DNA of 20,467 nt. It comes from a virus. This document shows positions 2,993 to 9,549 of the stretch, in pieces. The DNA is taken from the IMG/VR virus record IMGVR_UViG_3300022200_000261, positions 1 to 20,467 of that record; one strand, given 5' to 3'. The first letter of the stretch is position 1, and each line of letters begins with the position of its first letter. The notes under the pieces were generated by a model that saw nothing but the letters and a program-made list of their open reading frames with translations, searched no databases and was not told the origin of the DNA. A program made the translations under genes and the position numbers.

Positions 2993-4497
2993 TGGCATGG
3001 TATAACAACATCTTTAATAGAACTGAAGTCAAGGCAAAAAAACGTCAAGCCTATAGAAGATCTTATTCTGGTGCTAATGCAGGAAGATTATTTGCAGATT
3101 TTTTAACTACTTCTACCAGTGCTGATGCTGAAATAAAAGACAACATACGAGTCCTTAGAGACAGAGCAAGAGAGTTAGCAAGAAACGATAGCTATATTGC
3201 TAGATACTTAAATCTGATGGTGTCTAATGTTATCGGTAAGCATGGCATAAGAGTTAGCTCTAAGGCGAGACTAGATGACCCTGTTAACATGGGTAAGCTA
3301 GACCTAAGAGCTAACCAGTCCATTGAGGAAGCATGGAACGAATGGACAAGATTAGGAAATTGCACAACTAACAAAAGATTAACATTCTTAGATTGTCAGA
3401 AAATATTTATTGAATCTCTTTGCAGAGATGGTGAAGTTTTAATCAGAAAAATAAAAGATCTCAAATCACCTTTTGGATTTAGAATTCAATTCTTAGAAGC
3501 AGATCATCTGGATGAAAATAAAAATGATTACTACAAAGAAACTGGTAATCGTATCAAGATGGGTGTTGAAGTAGATAAGTTTGATACACCTATTGCTTAT
3601 CACCTTTATAAAGATCATCCTTACGAAAGAACCTACCTAAACAAGAACCAACACATTAGAGTGCCTGCTGATGAAATCATTCATGCTTTCTTACCACAGA
3701 GAGCAGAGCAAACTAGAGGTGTTTCTTTGGTTGCAACAGCTATGGCTAATGTCAAAATGTATTCAGGCTATATGGAAGCAGAGGTAGTTGCAGCACGTGT
3801 ATCTGCAAGTAAGATGGGATTCTTTGTAAGTCCAGATGGTGACGGTTACGTTGGTGATGGTGAATACGAAGACGGATTCAGTCCTACTATGAATGCTCAA
3901 GCAGGTGTCTTTGAGCAACTACCTGCAGGAATGGACTTTAGAGCATTTGACCCAAACCATCCTACATCTGCTTTTGAATCATTCACAAAAACTGTGCTTA
4001 GAAGTATCGCATCTGGTTTAAACATTTCTTATCATTCACTTTCTAACGATTTAACTTCTGTGAACTACAGCTCTATCAGACAAGGAGCTTTAGAAGATCG
4101 CAGTATGTATCAGATCTATCAACAATTTGTAATCGAACACTTCATTGAGCCAATATTCAGATCATGGTTAGAAATGGCAGTTTCAACAAACTATATTAAA
4201 CTTCCTGTTTCTAAAGTTGATCAATTTGCTAATGCGGTAACATTTATTCCAAGAAGTTTTGCTTGGATAGACCCACTAAAAGAAATGCAAGCTAACGTGA
4301 TTGGATTACAAAACGGAACGCTTACTTATTCTGATATTTCTGCTTCTTATGGAAGAGATACAGAAGAATTATTTGAACAACATCAAAAAGAAATAGAGTT
4401 AGCTAAACAATATGATATCGAATTAGCCTATCAACCTTTTGGCTCTAAGTTGCCAGTAGAAGCAAAGATACAAGGTGGAGATGACGATGAGCTATAA
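2992..4497 (+). CDS. Portal protein (lambda gpB family)
   Basis: This 501-residue protein would form the dodecameric ring through which DNA enters and leaves the head, and would anchor terminase and connector proteins. It shows the family pattern throughout: a basic N-terminus, IRVLRDRARELARNDSYIAR at 50-69, NVIGKHGIRV, the LEADHLDE motif, VPADEIIHAFLPQRAEQTRG, and VNYSSIRQGALEDRSMYQ near the helical tunnel/crown region. Length matches the lambda-type portals. The start overlaps the preceding stop in TAATG and the 3' end overlaps the capsid frame by 11 nt. Its Asp/Glu-rich C-terminal tail encodes the Shine-Dalgarno of the next gene. Identification is by recalled family motifs. Confidence 0.95.
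   Translation: MAWYNNIFNRTEVKAKKRQAYRRSYSGANAGRLFADFLTTSTSADAEIKDNIRVLRDRARELARNDSYIARYLNLMVSNVIGKHGIRVSSKARLDDPVNMGKLDLRANQSIEEAWNEWTRLGNCTTNKRLTFLDCQKIFIESLCRDGEVLIRKIKDLKSPFGFRIQFLEADHLDENKNDYYKETGNRIKMGVEVDKFDTPIAYHLYKDHPYERTYLNKNQHIRVPADEIIHAFLPQRAEQTRGVSLVATAMANVKMYSGYMEAEVVAARVSASKMGFFVSPDGDGYVGDGEYEDGFSPTMNAQAGVFEQLPAGMDFRAFDPNHPTSAFESFTKTVLRSIASGLNISYHSLSNDLTSVNYSSIRQGALEDRSMYQIYQQFVIEHFIEPIFRSWLEMAVSTNYIKLPVSKVDQFANAVTFIPRSFAWIDPLKEMQANVIGLQNGTLTYSDISASYGRDTEELFEQHQKEIELAKQYDIELAYQPFGSKLPVEAKIQGGDDDEL
4474..4480 (+). promoter_or_regulatory. Ribosome binding site for the capsid fusion frame
   Basis: GGTGGAG lies 6 nt before ATG at 4487, inside the end of the portal gene. In-frame alternatives GTG 4475 and ATG 4481 overlap or touch this site, so 4487 is the preferred start. 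Confidence 0.7.
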
Positions 4498-7060
4498 ACC
4501 AACTGAAGGAATGGTCACTGAAGCTCAAAGAGGTTTAGATTGGCGTAGAGAACATGGCAGAGGTGGTACTGAAGTTGGTATCGCTAGAGCAAGAGATATT
4601 GTTAATGGAAAGAATCTTTCTGAATCCACCGTCAAAAGAATGTATAGCTTCTTTTCAAGGCATGAAGTAGATAAGCAAGCTGAAGGATTCTCTCAAGGAG
4701 AAGACGGATATCCATCTAATGGCAGGATTGCATGGGCATTGTGGTCGGGTGACGAAGGCTATTCTTGGTCAAGACAGATTGTTGAAAGATTAAAGAAAGA
4801 AGACGAAAGAATGTACGAAGCTAGACCATATCCCAACGAACATGCAGCAAGAATTAATAATCCAGATAAATACGTTGAATTTGCAAGAGATAATGATGAG
4901 TTTGGTTCAGGCATACACGTTATTTATGGAATATTAGAAGATCGAAGCTCAGAAGTTCAATCAATAAGATTCGATTCAAGTAAGTTTACACCAGATGAAG
5001 CTAAGGCATGGCTAGAAGAACATGATTATAATTATATTGAGTTTGAAGAAGCTATTGAAGAAAAGGCATTATCTGATAAATTAGAAGAAGGCACACTATC
5101 AACCGACAAGGAGTTAACAATGGATAGTAAACAAGACAGACATATTCTTGAAGTGAATGAGACCGATGACTCTGTTGTTATCTCGTTTGCTAAAGAACAC
5201 AAAGAAGATATAGAAGAATCTGAGCCAGTAGAAATAGTGGATGAAGAGAATTCTATGCATGAGGAAGAAGAGAGAAAAGTAGTTGATCTTATGAGATACA
5301 GAACTATTGATCTTTCCAGAGCTGATCATATTGATGAAAAAAATCGCAGGGTCAGAGTTGGTGTATCTTCTGAATCACCAGTAGACAGAAGTTTTGGAAG
5401 AGAAGTCTTAGGACACAGAGCAGAAGATATTGACATGGAATTTATGTCAAGCGGAACTGCTCCTTTTCTATTAGATCATGATATGACCAAGCAAATTGGT
5501 GTTATCGAAGAGTTCAAACTAGACGAGACTGCTAAGAGGACAATTGCAGTAGTAAGATTTGGAAAATCTGCTCTTGCTCAAGAAGTGTTTGAAGATGTAA
5601 AAGACGGAATTCGAATGAATATATCCGTTGGATACAAAATAAATAAAATGGAACGTGTCAGCGATGACAAAGGAGACTACTACAGAGCTAACTGGACACC
5701 TTTAGAGGTAAGTTCAGTTGCAGTACCTGCAGATCAGTCAAAAGCTGTCGGAGTTGGTCGTTCTGAAACTAACCTTAATTTCAAACAGGAAATAAAAATG
5801 GAAAAACAAATTAAACAAGATATTAATCTTGACGAGGTTAGATCTAAAACTGTTGAAGAAGCTAAAGCTGAGTTCAAAAGAAACTCTAAAGAGATCATTG
5901 ATCTAGCTGTTAGACACAACAAAAGAGATCTAGCTGATAAAGCAATTTCTGAAGGTATTTCTGTGGAAGAATTTAGAGGTGTCCTCTTAGAGAATATCGC
6001 TAATGACAAACCATTAGAAACACCATCAGATATAGGTATGACAGCTAAAGAAGTCAAAAGATTTAGCGTAGTAAAAGCTCTTAGAGCTTTAGCTAATCCA
6101 ACTGACAGAAAAGCTCAAGCAGATGCAGCATTTGAATTTGAATGTTCAGAAGAAGCTGCTAGACAAAATAGAACAACTGCACAAGGCATCATGCTTCCTG
6201 CAGACGTTCTAGCTCAATGGGGTCGAAGAGATCTTAACTCTTCTAATGATTCAACTTTAATCCCTCAGGATTTCAAAGGTGGAGATTTCATTGACGTTCT
6301 AAGAAACCAATCTTCAGTTATGGCTGCAGGTGCAACTATGTTACGTGGTCTTCAAGGCTCTGTAGTTATACCCAAGAAAACTGCTGCTTCTAGCGGTGGT
6401 TGGATTGCTACTGAAGGAAACGCTGCTTCTGAATCAGAGTTCACATCTGGAAGCGTAACCATGTCACCTAAAGTGATTGGTGCTTTCACAGATGTTACTA
6501 GATTGCTTTTACAACAAAGCTCACTAGACATTGAGAACTTGATCAGAGATGACCTTACTCAATCAATTGCTATCGCTATTGACTTGGGTGCATTAGCAGG
6601 TTCTGGTTCTTCAGGACAGCCTACAGGTGTCAAAAACACTTCTGGTGTTAACACAACTACATTTGCAGCAGCTAATCCAACTTTCGCTGAGATCGTTGGA
6701 ATGGAATCTGCAGTTGCAGCAGACAATGCTTTACTTGGCAACTTGTCTTACATTTGTAAGCCTGCTGACTACGGTACATTGAAAACTACTTCTAAAGATT
6801 CAGGTAGTGGTCAATTTGTAGTTGAGCCAGATGGCAGAATGAATGGCTACAACGTAGTTAGATCAAATCAAGTTACTTCAGGTGATTTCTACTTTGGTAA
6901 CTTTGGTGATCTATTAATTGGTATGTATGGTTCTCTTGATATCACAGTTGACCCTTACAGCTTATCTAACACTGGTTCTATCAGAATCGTTGCTCTTCAA
7001 ACAGTTGATGTAGCAGTTAGACATGCTGTTAGCTTCTGTGTATCTAATGACGGTGCATAA
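4487..7060 (+). CDS. Fused head accessory region, prohead protease and HK97-type major capsid protein
   Basis: One open frame of 857 residues from ATG 4487 (861 from GTG 4475) carries three blocks. Residues 1-105 contain GLDWRREHGRGGTEVG, STVKRMYSFFSRHEVDKQ and GRIAWALWSGDEG, a domain I recall in phage head-gene neighbourhoods but whose function I do not know. Residues 110-190 contain RPYPNEHAARI and VIYGILEDRSSEVQSIRF, another recurrent head-module motif. Residues about 265-430 are a U35-type prohead protease, with catalytic candidates H331 (LLDHD) and S380 (NISVGY). From residue 438 on comes the major capsid protein, with an N-terminal helical delta/scaffold region and HK97-fold signatures such as SGGWIATEG and LGALAGSGSSGQPTGV. 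The capsid is normally a separate gene. Here no stop separates them, but internal starts exist at 5120 and 5798. Self-cleavage of the long product is likely. Confidence 0.9.
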   Translation: MSYKPTEGMVTEAQRGLDWRREHGRGGTEVGIARARDIVNGKNLSESTVKRMYSFFSRHEVDKQAEGFSQGEDGYPSNGRIAWALWSGDEGYSWSRQIVERLKKEDERMYEARPYPNEHAARINNPDKYVEFARDNDEFGSGIHVIYGILEDRSSEVQSIRFDSSKFTPDEAKAWLEEHDYNYIEFEEAIEEKALSDKLEEGTLSTDKELTMDSKQDRHILEVNETDDSVVISFAKEHKEDIEESEPVEIVDEENSMHEEEERKVVDLMRYRTIDLSRADHIDEKNRRVRVGVSSESPVDRSFGREVLGHRAEDIDMEFMSSGTAPFLLDHDMTKQIGVIEEFKLDETAKRTIAVVRFGKSALAQEVFEDVKDGIRMNISVGYKINKMERVSDDKGDYYRANWTPLEVSSVAVPADQSKAVGVGRSETNLNFKQEIKMEKQIKQDINLDEVRSKTVEEAKAEFKRNSKEIIDLAVRHNKRDLADKAISEGISVEEFRGVLLENIANDKPLETPSDIGMTAKEVKRFSVVKALRALANPTDRKAQADAAFEFECSEEAARQNRTTAQGIMLPADVLAQWGRRDLNSSNDSTLIPQDFKGGDFIDVLRNQSSVMAAGATMLRGLQGSVVIPKKTAASSGGWIATEGNAASESEFTSGSVTMSPKVIGAFTDVTRLLLQQSSLDIENLIRDDLTQSIAIAIDLGALAGSGSSGQPTGVKNTSGVNTTTFAAANPTFAEIVGMESAVAADNALLGNLSYICKPADYGTLKTTSKDSGSGQFVVEPDGRMNGYNVVRSNQVTSGDFYFGNFGDLLIGMYGSLDITVDPYSLSNTGSIRIVALQTVDVAVRHAVSFCVSNDGA
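5108..5113 (+). promoter_or_regulatory. Internal ribosome binding site for a protease-capsid product
   Basis: A perfect AAGGAG stands 6 nt before the in-frame ATG at 5120, within the long capsid frame. It is the strongest Shine-Dalgarno match in this gene and falls exactly at the boundary between the accessory region and the protease block. Confidence 0.65.
5120..7060 (+). CDS. Probable internal-start product: prohead protease plus capsid protein
   Basis: Translation from the internal ATG at 5120 would give 646 residues lacking the first 211 of the long frame. The product begins MDSKQDRHILEVNETDD, passes through an acidic linker (EEEERK), then carries the protease block with the LLDHD and NISVGY motifs and the full capsid protein. 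The AAGGAG at ideal spacing is the evidence. Nested starts are known for lambda C/Nu3, where scaffold and protease share a frame. Here the arrangement would separate the protease from the upstream accessory region. Whether the protein is made is not shown by sequence alone. Confidence 0.5.
   Translation: MDSKQDRHILEVNETDDSVVISFAKEHKEDIEESEPVEIVDEENSMHEEEERKVVDLMRYRTIDLSRADHIDEKNRRVRVGVSSESPVDRSFGREVLGHRAEDIDMEFMSSGTAPFLLDHDMTKQIGVIEEFKLDETAKRTIAVVRFGKSALAQEVFEDVKDGIRMNISVGYKINKMERVSDDKGDYYRANWTPLEVSSVAVPADQSKAVGVGRSETNLNFKQEIKMEKQIKQDINLDEVRSKTVEEAKAEFKRNSKEIIDLAVRHNKRDLADKAISEGISVEEFRGVLLENIANDKPLETPSDIGMTAKEVKRFSVVKALRALANPTDRKAQADAAFEFECSEEAARQNRTTAQGIMLPADVLAQWGRRDLNSSNDSTLIPQDFKGGDFIDVLRNQSSVMAAGATMLRGLQGSVVIPKKTAASSGGWIATEGNAASESEFTSGSVTMSPKVIGAFTDVTRLLLQQSSLDIENLIRDDLTQSIAIAIDLGALAGSGSSGQPTGVKNTSGVNTTTFAAANPTFAEIVGMESAVAADNALLGNLSYICKPADYGTLKTTSKDSGSGQFVVEPDGRMNGYNVVRSNQVTSGDFYFGNFGDLLIGMYGSLDITVDPYSLSNTGSIRIVALQTVDVAVRHAVSFCVSNDGA
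5787..5790 (+). promoter_or_regulatory. Internal ribosome binding site for free capsid protein
   Basis: AGGA in ACAGGAAAT lies 7 nt before the in-frame ATG at 5798, at the protease-capsid junction. Confidence 0.6.
5798..7060 (+). CDS. Probable internal-start product: HK97-fold major capsid protein alone
   Basis: The ATG at 5798 gives 420 residues, a normal size for an unprocessed HK97-type capsid protein. The product starts MEKQIKQDINLDEVRSKTVE. Residues 1 to about 115 are charged and helical, like the delta (scaffolding) domain that the protease removes. From about 120 (GIMLPADVLAQWG) the shell-forming fold follows, with SGGWIATEG and LGALAGSGSSGQPTGV typical of the family. A capsid needs hundreds of these subunits but few proteases, so independent initiation here would solve the stoichiometry problem created by the fused frame. 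The cleavage position is inferred, not seen. Confidence 0.65.
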   Translation: MEKQIKQDINLDEVRSKTVEEAKAEFKRNSKEIIDLAVRHNKRDLADKAISEGISVEEFRGVLLENIANDKPLETPSDIGMTAKEVKRFSVVKALRALANPTDRKAQADAAFEFECSEEAARQNRTTAQGIMLPADVLAQWGRRDLNSSNDSTLIPQDFKGGDFIDVLRNQSSVMAAGATMLRGLQGSVVIPKKTAASSGGWIATEGNAASESEFTSGSVTMSPKVIGAFTDVTRLLLQQSSLDIENLIRDDLTQSIAIAIDLGALAGSGSSGQPTGVKNTSGVNTTTFAAANPTFAEIVGMESAVAADNALLGNLSYICKPADYGTLKTTSKDSGSGQFVVEPDGRMNGYNVVRSNQVTSGDFYFGNFGDLLIGMYGSLDITVDPYSLSNTGSIRIVALQTVDVAVRHAVSFCVSNDGA

Positions 7061-7108: not shown

Positions 7109-7321
7109 ATGAAAAAATTTTTAATTACACAAGATACAGTGGCAAAAGGCGAAAGAGTCAAAGCAGGAGATGTGGTTGAACTTCCTGAAGACGTAGGTTA
7201 TGAGCTATGTGCTTATGGCAAAGCTGCTCCACACATTGAAAAAGCTAAACCAAAAAAAGAAAATAGAAGCGTGGGTTTAGAAAGCTCAGAGGAAGCTCCT
7301 AAGAAAAGAGCTAAAAAATAA
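7109..7321 (+). CDS. Small Lys-rich phage protein (head-completion region)
   Basis: From ATG 7109 the protein is 70 residues, MKKFLITQDTVAKGERVKAG onward. An in-frame ATG at 7067 would add 14 residues encoded by the hairpin, which look like non-coding sequence, so 7109 is preferred. Residues 1-45 form a compact beta-type unit with VKAGDVVELPEDVGYELCAYGKA, a pattern common in small phage structural-module proteins. The tail (47-70) is Lys/Glu-rich and probably disordered. No clear Shine-Dalgarno stands at the right distance; the nearest purine run is inside the hairpin stem. Its position after the capsid matches lambda FI, but I see no real sequence basis for calling it FI. It ends in TAATG shared with the next gene. 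Confidence 0.7.
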   Translation: MKKFLITQDTVAKGERVKAGDVVELPEDVGYELCAYGKAAPHIEKAKPKKENRSVGLESSEEAPKKRAKK

Positions 7322-7722
7322 TGCCACCTATCGAAAGTGCTGCAGATTTTACTTCTTATCTTGATACCACAACAGGACACGGAGTAACTGCAACATTTTT
7401 CGAGACTGGGGTTTTATTTGATGATTTTCCCTTAATAGATACTCTTGGTTTTATAGATGATGGATTATCTGTCTTTATAAAACTCATCATTGACCAAGAA
7501 TATTTCAGCATACAAGGTGAATCGGTCAATGTTGCAGGTCATCAACCTAGAGCAATCATTAAATATTCTGATGCACCTAATGTTTCACAAAACGACAAAA
7601 TTGTTGTTGATGCAATTACCACAGATCAAGGTAATGTCTTAAAAGCACAAACAGAATTCAGAGTCAGAGTTGTCGAGCCAGATAACACAGGCATGGTTTC
7701 ACTTGTGCTTGAGGAACAATAA
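7321..7722 (+). CDS. FII-like head-tail joining protein, copy 1
   Basis: This 133-residue protein resembles the next one. Shared positions include YLD...GH, TAT, a P-A pair before DAPN, GN-LKA and a C-terminal TG...L-LEE. The order of elements (V..G..P.A, DAPN..Q.D, then a V.....D.TG.....L end) matches lambda FII-type tail-attachment proteins, which sit below the portal and receive the tail. It carries about 20 extra residues (near 28-50, ETGVLFDDFPLIDTLGF) that copy 2 lacks. It starts and ends in TAATG overlaps, implying tight translational coupling. The function is inferred from pattern and position between capsid and tail-terminator genes. Confidence 0.6.
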   Translation: MPPIESAADFTSYLDTTTGHGVTATFFETGVLFDDFPLIDTLGFIDDGLSVFIKLIIDQEYFSIQGESVNVAGHQPRAIIKYSDAPNVSQNDKIVVDAITTDQGNVLKAQTEFRVRVVEPDNTGMVSLVLEEQ

Positions 7723-8072
7723 TGTCTCAATTTAGATTGGAGACAGAAGCAGATATGAGTGCTTACCTTGATATCAATTATGGTCATGCAATTACTGCAA
7801 CTTATACAAGAAACGATGTAGATTCTACGATTAACATTATCTTAAATAATGAATACGTAGAACAAGAAGAAGGCATAGGAGTGGAAGCATTAAAACCTAT
7901 TGCCTATTGCAGAACCGTAGATGCACCTAATGCATCTTACGGAGATACATTAGCAGCAAGTGCTGTTACTGATATAGAAGGAAATATATTAAAAGCAGCA
8001 CAAACTTACACGATAGTAAATGTGCAAACAGACAGAACAGGTTTTACAGCTATGGAGCTAGAGGAAGTATAA
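7722..8072 (+). CDS. FII-like head-tail joining protein, copy 2
   Basis: This 116-residue paralogue of the preceding gene begins MSQFRLETEADMSAYLDINY and keeps GHAITATY, NEYVEQ, DAPNASYGDT, GNILKA and TGFTAMELEE. It lacks the insert of copy 1 and is close to the size of lambda FII (117 residues), so it may be the standard connector while copy 1 has diverged, perhaps to cover another head-tail completion role such as that of Z, which is not recognisable here. It ends immediately before the next ATG with no spacer. Confidence 0.6.
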   Translation: MSQFRLETEADMSAYLDINYGHAITATYTRNDVDSTINIILNNEYVEQEEGIGVEALKPIAYCRTVDAPNASYGDTLAASAVTDIEGNILKAAQTYTIVNVQTDRTGFTAMELEEV

Positions 8073-9061: not shown

Positions 9062-9397
9062 ATGTCAGCAATAGATAATCTAGTAGCTCATTATAAGAGC
9101 AAAGGACAAAAACTTATTGAAGTACCTGAATGGGGTGATGGCGAACAACCTATGAAAATATTTTGTGAACCCATCACCTTATTTGATATGAAGAAGTTTA
9201 TGAAACTTGCTAAAGATGATGAGGTTGAGATGCTTGTATATGTTTTGATATACAAAGCATTAGATGAAAATGGAGATAAGTATTTTACTATTGAGCATAA
9301 AAATAAATTATTAAATAATGTCGATAGTAGTGTTTTGGTGAGAGTGGCAACTGAGATAATGGGTAATATATCGCAAGGAGAGATGCAAAAAAAGTAG
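9062..9397 (+). CDS. Tail assembly chaperone (gpG-like, zero-frame product)
   Basis: This 111-residue protein, MSAIDNLVAHYKSKGQKLIE onward, is a helical tail assembly chaperone that would coat the tape measure and recruit tube subunits. It has the usual order: a short beta start with EWGDGEQPMKIF, then helices ending VLVRVATEIMG. It terminates at TAG 9395-9397 immediately after CAA AAA AAG, a slippery site that allows production of a longer gpG-T form. The position between tail tube and tape measure is diagnostic. The Shine-Dalgarno is weak (AAGAA), and coupling to the upstream stop 4 nt away is likely. Confidence 0.85.
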   Translation: MSAIDNLVAHYKSKGQKLIEVPEWGDGEQPMKIFCEPITLFDMKKFMKLAKDDEVEMLVYVLIYKALDENGDKYFTIEHKNKLLNNVDSSVLVRVATEIMGNISQGEMQKK

Positions 9398-9549
9398 CTG
9401 AAGATAAGCAGCTATATTCTATGTATGCTCTAGCAGAAAGATTACACAAAACTGTTGCTGAAATTGAGGAAATGACCTTAGAAGAATTTAACGGTTGGAT
9501 TGCTTATCTAAATATACAACAAGAGGAAATTAAAAAACAAAATGCCTAA
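9062..9549 (+). CDS. gpG-T fusion chaperone made by -1 ribosomal frameshift
   Basis: A -1 slip on A AAA AAG (9388-9394) lets the ribosome bypass TAG at 9395 and continue at GTA 9394 for 51 more codons to TAA at 9547-9549, giving 162 residues. The added part reads VAEDKQLYSMYALAERLHKT and continues with VAEIEEMTLEEFNGWIAYL. LAERLHKTVAEIEEM is a signature I know from gpT-type segments of tail chaperones, so the second frame is clearly coding although it has no ribosome start of its own. The end overlaps the tape measure start (ATG 9542) by 8 nt. In lambda the G:GT ratio controls tail assembly; the same is inferred here. Confidence 0.85.
9375..9414 (+). promoter_or_regulatory. Programmed -1 frameshift cassette (SD-like element, slippery site, hairpin)
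   Basis: AAGGAG (9375-9380) lies 7 nt before the slippery A AAA AAG (9388-9394). TAGCTG (9395-9400) then pairs perfectly with CAGCTA (9409-9414) around an 8-nt loop. This is the same set of parts as the E. coli dnaX frameshift signal: an upstream anti-SD pairing site, A AAA AAG, and a downstream stem. The stem starts with no spacer, closer than in dnaX. Confidence 0.75.

Follow-up and report, generated by a model that had tools for sequence, protein, structure and literature searches.

Probable nested in-frame start sites at the domain boundaries of an accessory-protease-capsid fusion frame in a marine phage

Protease-capsid fusions and nested genes in phage heads

In phage lambda, an internal in-frame start after the protease of C gives a second, co-terminal scaffold product, Nu3. 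Protease-capsid fusion genes are also already known (phrog_617, NF045541; PMC8508860). The two-part fusions with an S78-type protease, found in phiHAP-1, VP882, ep3 and R4C, belong to phrog_617 and NF045541 and are annotated as a single 'major capsid protein'. Gifsy-2 and Pseudomonas phage MD8 (PMC8508860) carry a protease, a scaffold and a capsid protein in one frame, with a protease of the unrelated ClpP type. The word 'internal' does not occur in the MD8 paper (PMC8508860).

Gene 006 of roseophage R4C encodes a 629-aa protease-capsid fusion. Its T=7 shell of 415 subunits was modelled solely from residues 362–629, which make up the last 268 residues of the fusion, and neither 'protease' nor 'cleav' is found in the text of the structure paper (PMC10276861). 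The R4C shell is therefore without the upstream parts of the fusion, and R4C alone does not tell internal initiation from cleavage. In CRP-822-type roseophages a longer frame of this kind was annotated only as 'major capsid protein', in a publication for which cultured CRP-822 and CRP-406 were both purified and from which 'protease' and 'fusion' are absent (PMC12629253). A description of a nested capsid start in protease-capsid fusions was not found in the open-licence papers searched; that literature also appears to be silent on its double nesting and on how widely it occurs among fusions.

The fusion frame and its domains

The window, meaning the whole 20.5-kb stretch of IMG/VR DNA analysed here, belongs to a marine phage and has a head operon of lambda-like layout. 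Genes for the two terminase subunits, small and large, for head-tail joining and for the portal come first, then the frame at 4487–7060, then head closure and tail genes. This gene order and homologous head genes are common to the CRP-822-type phage family, whose members CRP-811, CRP-821, CRP-823 and CRP-406 have the same three-part frame, with an internal start at the capsid boundary and, in most, at the protease boundary too. The frame overlaps the 3' end of the portal gene (stop 4495–4497), is open from GTG 4475 or ATG 4487, and closes with a stop at 7058–7060. The initial annotation had described an accessory region, a prohead protease and an HK97-type capsid protein without a separating stop, and the frame is indeed open throughout its 857 codons. 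The SD and ATG at the gene start are retained in relatives. The features of the frame are as follows.

4487–7060, plus strand: full-length frame, accessory, protease, delta and capsid, 857 aa, 94.9 kDa
4476–4489, plus strand: first start, GGTGGAG-type SD (−7.0 kcal/mol) and ATG 4487; GTG 4475 also possible
4487–4819, plus strand: accessory module A1, residues 1–111, five-helix domain, phrog_2859 (model pLDDT 93)
4883–5059, plus strand: accessory module A2, about residues 133–191, small alpha/beta segment
5108–5122, plus strand: internal start 1, AAGGAG, 6-nt spacer, ATG 5120 (M212)
5120–7060, plus strand: predicted product 2, protease-delta-capsid, 646 aa, 70.5 kDa, opening with a conserved M..RHI..ET motif
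5294–5761, plus strand: predicted S78-type prohead protease domain, about residues 270–425 (H331 and S380 invariant)
5787–5800, plus strand: internal start 2, AGGA, 7-nt spacer, ATG 5798 (M438, invariant)
5798–7060, plus strand: predicted product 3, delta domain and capsid protein, 420 aa, 44.7 kDa
5798–6241, plus strand: helical delta (scaffolding) domain, about residues 438–585, its end placed where, by homology, the modelled part of the R4C capsid 8gta begins
6242–7057, plus strand: mature HK97-fold capsid protein, about residues 586–857, 28.1 kDa

Two further features of the operon were seen downstream. The PF05354/phrog_82 head-closure family matches two adjoining genes (7321–8072), which suggests a tandem duplication. 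In the interval 9062–9545, the tail assembly chaperone gene ends in ATG CAA AAA AAG TAG, a classic slippery run, and the −1 frame is open almost as far as the tape measure gene, which lies at 9542; a G/GT programmed frameshift is likely here.

In the AlphaFold model the domains are separated by low-confidence linkers, two of which (residues 186–220 and 425–452) hold the two internal starts, in agreement with their earlier placement at the domain boundaries. A third linker (residues 581–599) lies where removal of the delta domain is expected. The phrog_617 profile matches residues 270–855. The protease is predicted to be of S78 type rather than the ClpP type of Gifsy-2 and MD8-like fusions. Its part of the frame matches the phrog_80/3244 head maturation protease and scores 31.5 bits against TIGR01543 (cut-off 59); close homologues pass the PF04586 cut-off. 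The catalytic residues named previously, H331 (LLDHDM) and S380 (NISVGY), are at their given positions and are invariant among 53–56 relatives.

Beyond what was first described, the capsid part opens with a delta domain (about residues 438–585). The capsid protein is of the HK97 fold, with Phage_capsid PF05065 at residues 591–852 (E 2.6e-38), and its best PDB match, by sequence and by fold, is the R4C capsid 8gta.

The accessory part likewise proves to consist of at least two modules. For the A1 fold, a Foldseek match at E < 0.001 was not found, and the highest-scoring VIA hit, with a Z of 4.3, was a designed helical protein. The BRX match in A2 was weak, under the Pfam cut-off, and was set aside. 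A1 is a mobile phage module that is found either standalone or N-terminal to head proteases (A1 carriers L449, L450, L451). It stands alone in phage PaBG, beside topoisomerase genes; in Pontimonas phage phiPsal1 it lies N-terminal to the prohead protease, and in Vibrio phage 1.013 it forms the N-terminus of a large protein of the head operon, encoded immediately 5' of the capsid gene. Relatives have other modules between A1 and the protease, such as Hva1 Tudor and DUF5824-like domains. CRP-811 has three SD and ATG sites in this interval (L082, 4892–4946), one of them just 5' of the Hva1 Tudor module, as if inserted modules each keep their own start.

Conservation of the two internal starts

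The sites are as initially described, with AAGGAG at 5108–5113 and a 6-nt spacer before ATG 5120, and AGGA at 5787–5790 and a 7-nt spacer before ATG 5798. Two such sites at two boundaries had been called unlikely by chance. The window alone is only suggestive on this point; its relatives and a shuffle test decide in favour. In 80 close relatives both internal starts are present, nearly always with an SD. SD energies throughout assume the standard 16S tail, which may not be that of the host. In a set of 68 representatives sharing less than 85% identity, the ATG is preceded by an SD at least as strong as −5 kcal/mol in 82% at the capsid boundary, in 72% at the protease boundary and in 82% at the gene start; of 1255 further in-frame ATGs, 6% have such an SD. 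The boundary figures refer to the best ATG in a search window (average 1.4 capsid and 3.5 protease ATGs) and are somewhat inflated. A synonymous-shuffle test that holds the protein fixed was therefore applied to 60 non-cyanophage representatives. SD and ATG occur together at the capsid boundary in 56 of these, against 27.4 expected (z about 9), and at the protease boundary in 47, against 36.6 expected (z about 3.5). The initial annotation would have counted the proposal as refuted if close relatives retaining the fusion had lost the two internal sites; no such loss came to light across the relatives.

The SD before ATG 5798 is weak in the window itself, at about −4.3 kcal/mol, and conservation is therefore the real test of this site. 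M438 is an invariant column within a variable linker in alignments of 53–56 relatives, down to about 40% identity, and virtually every fusion examined retains the start. The SD is found in all three codon phases, 5–8 nt from the ATG, and is therefore not a by-product of one peptide. RNA structure is lower around this start than around other in-frame ATGs. In the cyanophage-type (S-CBS1-type) group the SD is absent at the equivalent position, yet an ATG or, in a few cases, a GTG is kept, and codons other than these were not found in the tabulated sequences. The leader at the capsid start of this group has 1.6 G per 24 nt versus 7.2, and less structure. Cyanobacteria depend less on SD sequences. 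After the protease, the frame contains an in-frame start with a ribosome site that leads to the same stop and has been maintained by selection, as expected of a nested in-frame gene pair of the lambda C/Nu3 type.

ATG 5120 has the strongest SD of the 22 in-frame ATGs in the window (−8.0 kcal/mol). In the window's clade, Glu codons inside this SD are GAG over GAA by 70:9, and inside the 5798 SD by 28:5, versus 593:2616 (18% GAG) elsewhere; the sequences are related and p values for this comparison are nominal. Among the 39 representatives with the RHI motif, 32 have an ATG no more than 12 codons upstream, 28 of these with an SD. L371 and L375 have a GTG in place of the ATG next to the motif and keep the SD (−7.1), while in L153, L185, L206, L245 and L401 the start next to the motif is missing or moved. 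The 5120 start has therefore held across the window's clade and in most carriers of the motif, but is less widely conserved than that at 5798. There is a good probability that it is real in the window's clade, and it is frequent but not universal further out.

Two groups of relatives show other arrangements. S-CBS1-type relatives without the accessory module have a frame that begins near the homologous position, and the distant L441 and L443 have a protease gene followed by a capsid gene of its own. In CRP-823 (L083, about 5050) the accessory region has one T more than that of CRP-821, which splits the frame upstream of both internal starts; this fits independent downstream initiation, but the added base falls within a run of Ts and could reflect an error in sequencing. 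Other split frames were considered as natural proof, namely a nonsense codon in the protease of L213, one in the accessory part of L263 and a frameshift inside the delta domain of L332. These resemble sporadic mutations or misassemblies and were given no weight.

Internal starts in other fusions

The two-part S78 fusions have protease and capsid parts homologous to those of the window, but are without the N-terminal accessory modules and hence without a 5120-type start. In almost every one that was examined, the protease is followed by an internal ATG or GTG, which in many cases has an SD. Of 45 representatives, 40 have an ATG within the first 60 codons beyond the protease, in 22 cases with an SD at least as strong as −5, and a GTG is present in several of the remainder. 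These fusions occur in phages of Escherichia, Salmonella, Vibrio, Halomonas, Rhodobacter, Acinetobacter, Burkholderia and Achromobacter.

Gifsy-2 and MD8 resemble the window in having the protease, scaffold and capsid in one frame, and differ in their ClpP-type protease and their lack of accessory modules. Within the Gifsy-2 clade (L453–L532), a conserved SD and ATG lie directly after the protease in 16 of 17 representatives (M221 in Gifsy-2, from whose record the capsid gene alone was used); in the 17th the protease end was not located. The window shares with lambda C/Nu3 an in-frame start after the protease and a co-terminal nested product. Unlike in lambda, however, the major capsid protein itself is part of the nested product, the protease is predicted to be of S78 type and there are two nested starts.

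Proposed mechanism and alternatives

The reading that we consider probable, with considerable confidence, is of one frame with three in-frame starts and one stop, in which delta-capsid is the main block of the shell and the longer forms bring the protease in. Initiation at ATG 4487 would give the full accessory-protease-delta-capsid protein, at ATG 5120 the protease-delta-capsid form, and at ATG 5798 delta-capsid, which is expected to be the most abundant product and to supply most of the shell. The ratio of the products would be governed by start strength and not by separate genes. Judging from the sequence, it is very likely that the internal starts allow free shell protein to be produced in large amounts, together with smaller amounts of the fused forms. 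The longer forms would enter the shell via their capsid domain, placing the protease on the inward-facing N-terminal side, and A1 and A2 of the longest form would be placed on this side as well. The protease may then strip the delta domain from all subunits, its own included, to leave shell subunits of about 28 kDa; the cut site for this step is set by homology alone. The initial annotation had proposed an excess of free capsid protein and delivery of the protease by the fused form; both remain inferences, in keeping with R4C and a rough packing estimate. Its suggestion that the fused form releases itself by cleavage is plausible for an S78 protease.

A single polyprotein could be envisaged instead, with initiation at 4487 only and all subunits made full length and cut by the protease, as HK97 removes its delta domain. 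The fused protease with its conserved catalytic residues and the absence of everything upstream from the R4C shell subunits would both agree with this. It leaves unexplained the invariant start codon, the SD codon bias, the phase shifts of the SD and the exchange of ATG for GTG, and 415 copies of the 585 upstream residues would take up ~80% of the interior by a rough estimate that assumes an HK97-like prohead inner radius of 21 nm, by which a prohead made wholly of full-length subunits would be overfilled. A polyprotein is considered very improbable. Somewhat less improbable, though still unlikely, is that only the 5798 start functions, giving two products, and that the 5120 site is a by-product of coding a Lys/Glu-rich linker. 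AAGGAG codes KE, which is common in such linkers, the site is not universal and its excess over shuffled sequences is modest; against this stand the preference for GAG inside its SD, its presence throughout the close relatives and the swap of ATG for GTG with the SD kept in L371 and L375.

It could also be that the SD-like motifs do not initiate translation and are ribosome pause sites for stepwise domain folding, or relics of separate genes. Their position in interdomain linkers would agree with this, and the modular accessory region does suggest past gene fusions. Pausing, however, would not call for a start codon a set distance away, and in the cyanophage group the start codon persists where the SD is absent, while relics would be expected to decay across relatives at 40% identity. 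We regard this explanation as the least probable of all.

Implications for phage head assembly

Under the nested-start reading, an internal start after the protease may be general in tailed-phage fusions, including those with unrelated protease families, and may set the ratio of shell to protease. The second start of the marine clade would then dose the accessory module, amounting to a three-level co-assembly with the protease and cargo as minority fusion subunits. This broader proposal is put forward tentatively, with the balance slightly in its favour.

Databases annotate such frames as one 'major capsid protein' of 600–1000 residues. Should the internal start prove to be in use, the C-terminal part of each frame would be the capsid gene proper, which would affect capsid-based taxonomy, mass spectrometry matching and structure modelling for hundreds of abundant marine phages. 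Nested starts would offer a simple answer to how one fused gene supplies many shell subunits and few proteases, and a testable route for targeting the protease and cargo into proheads.
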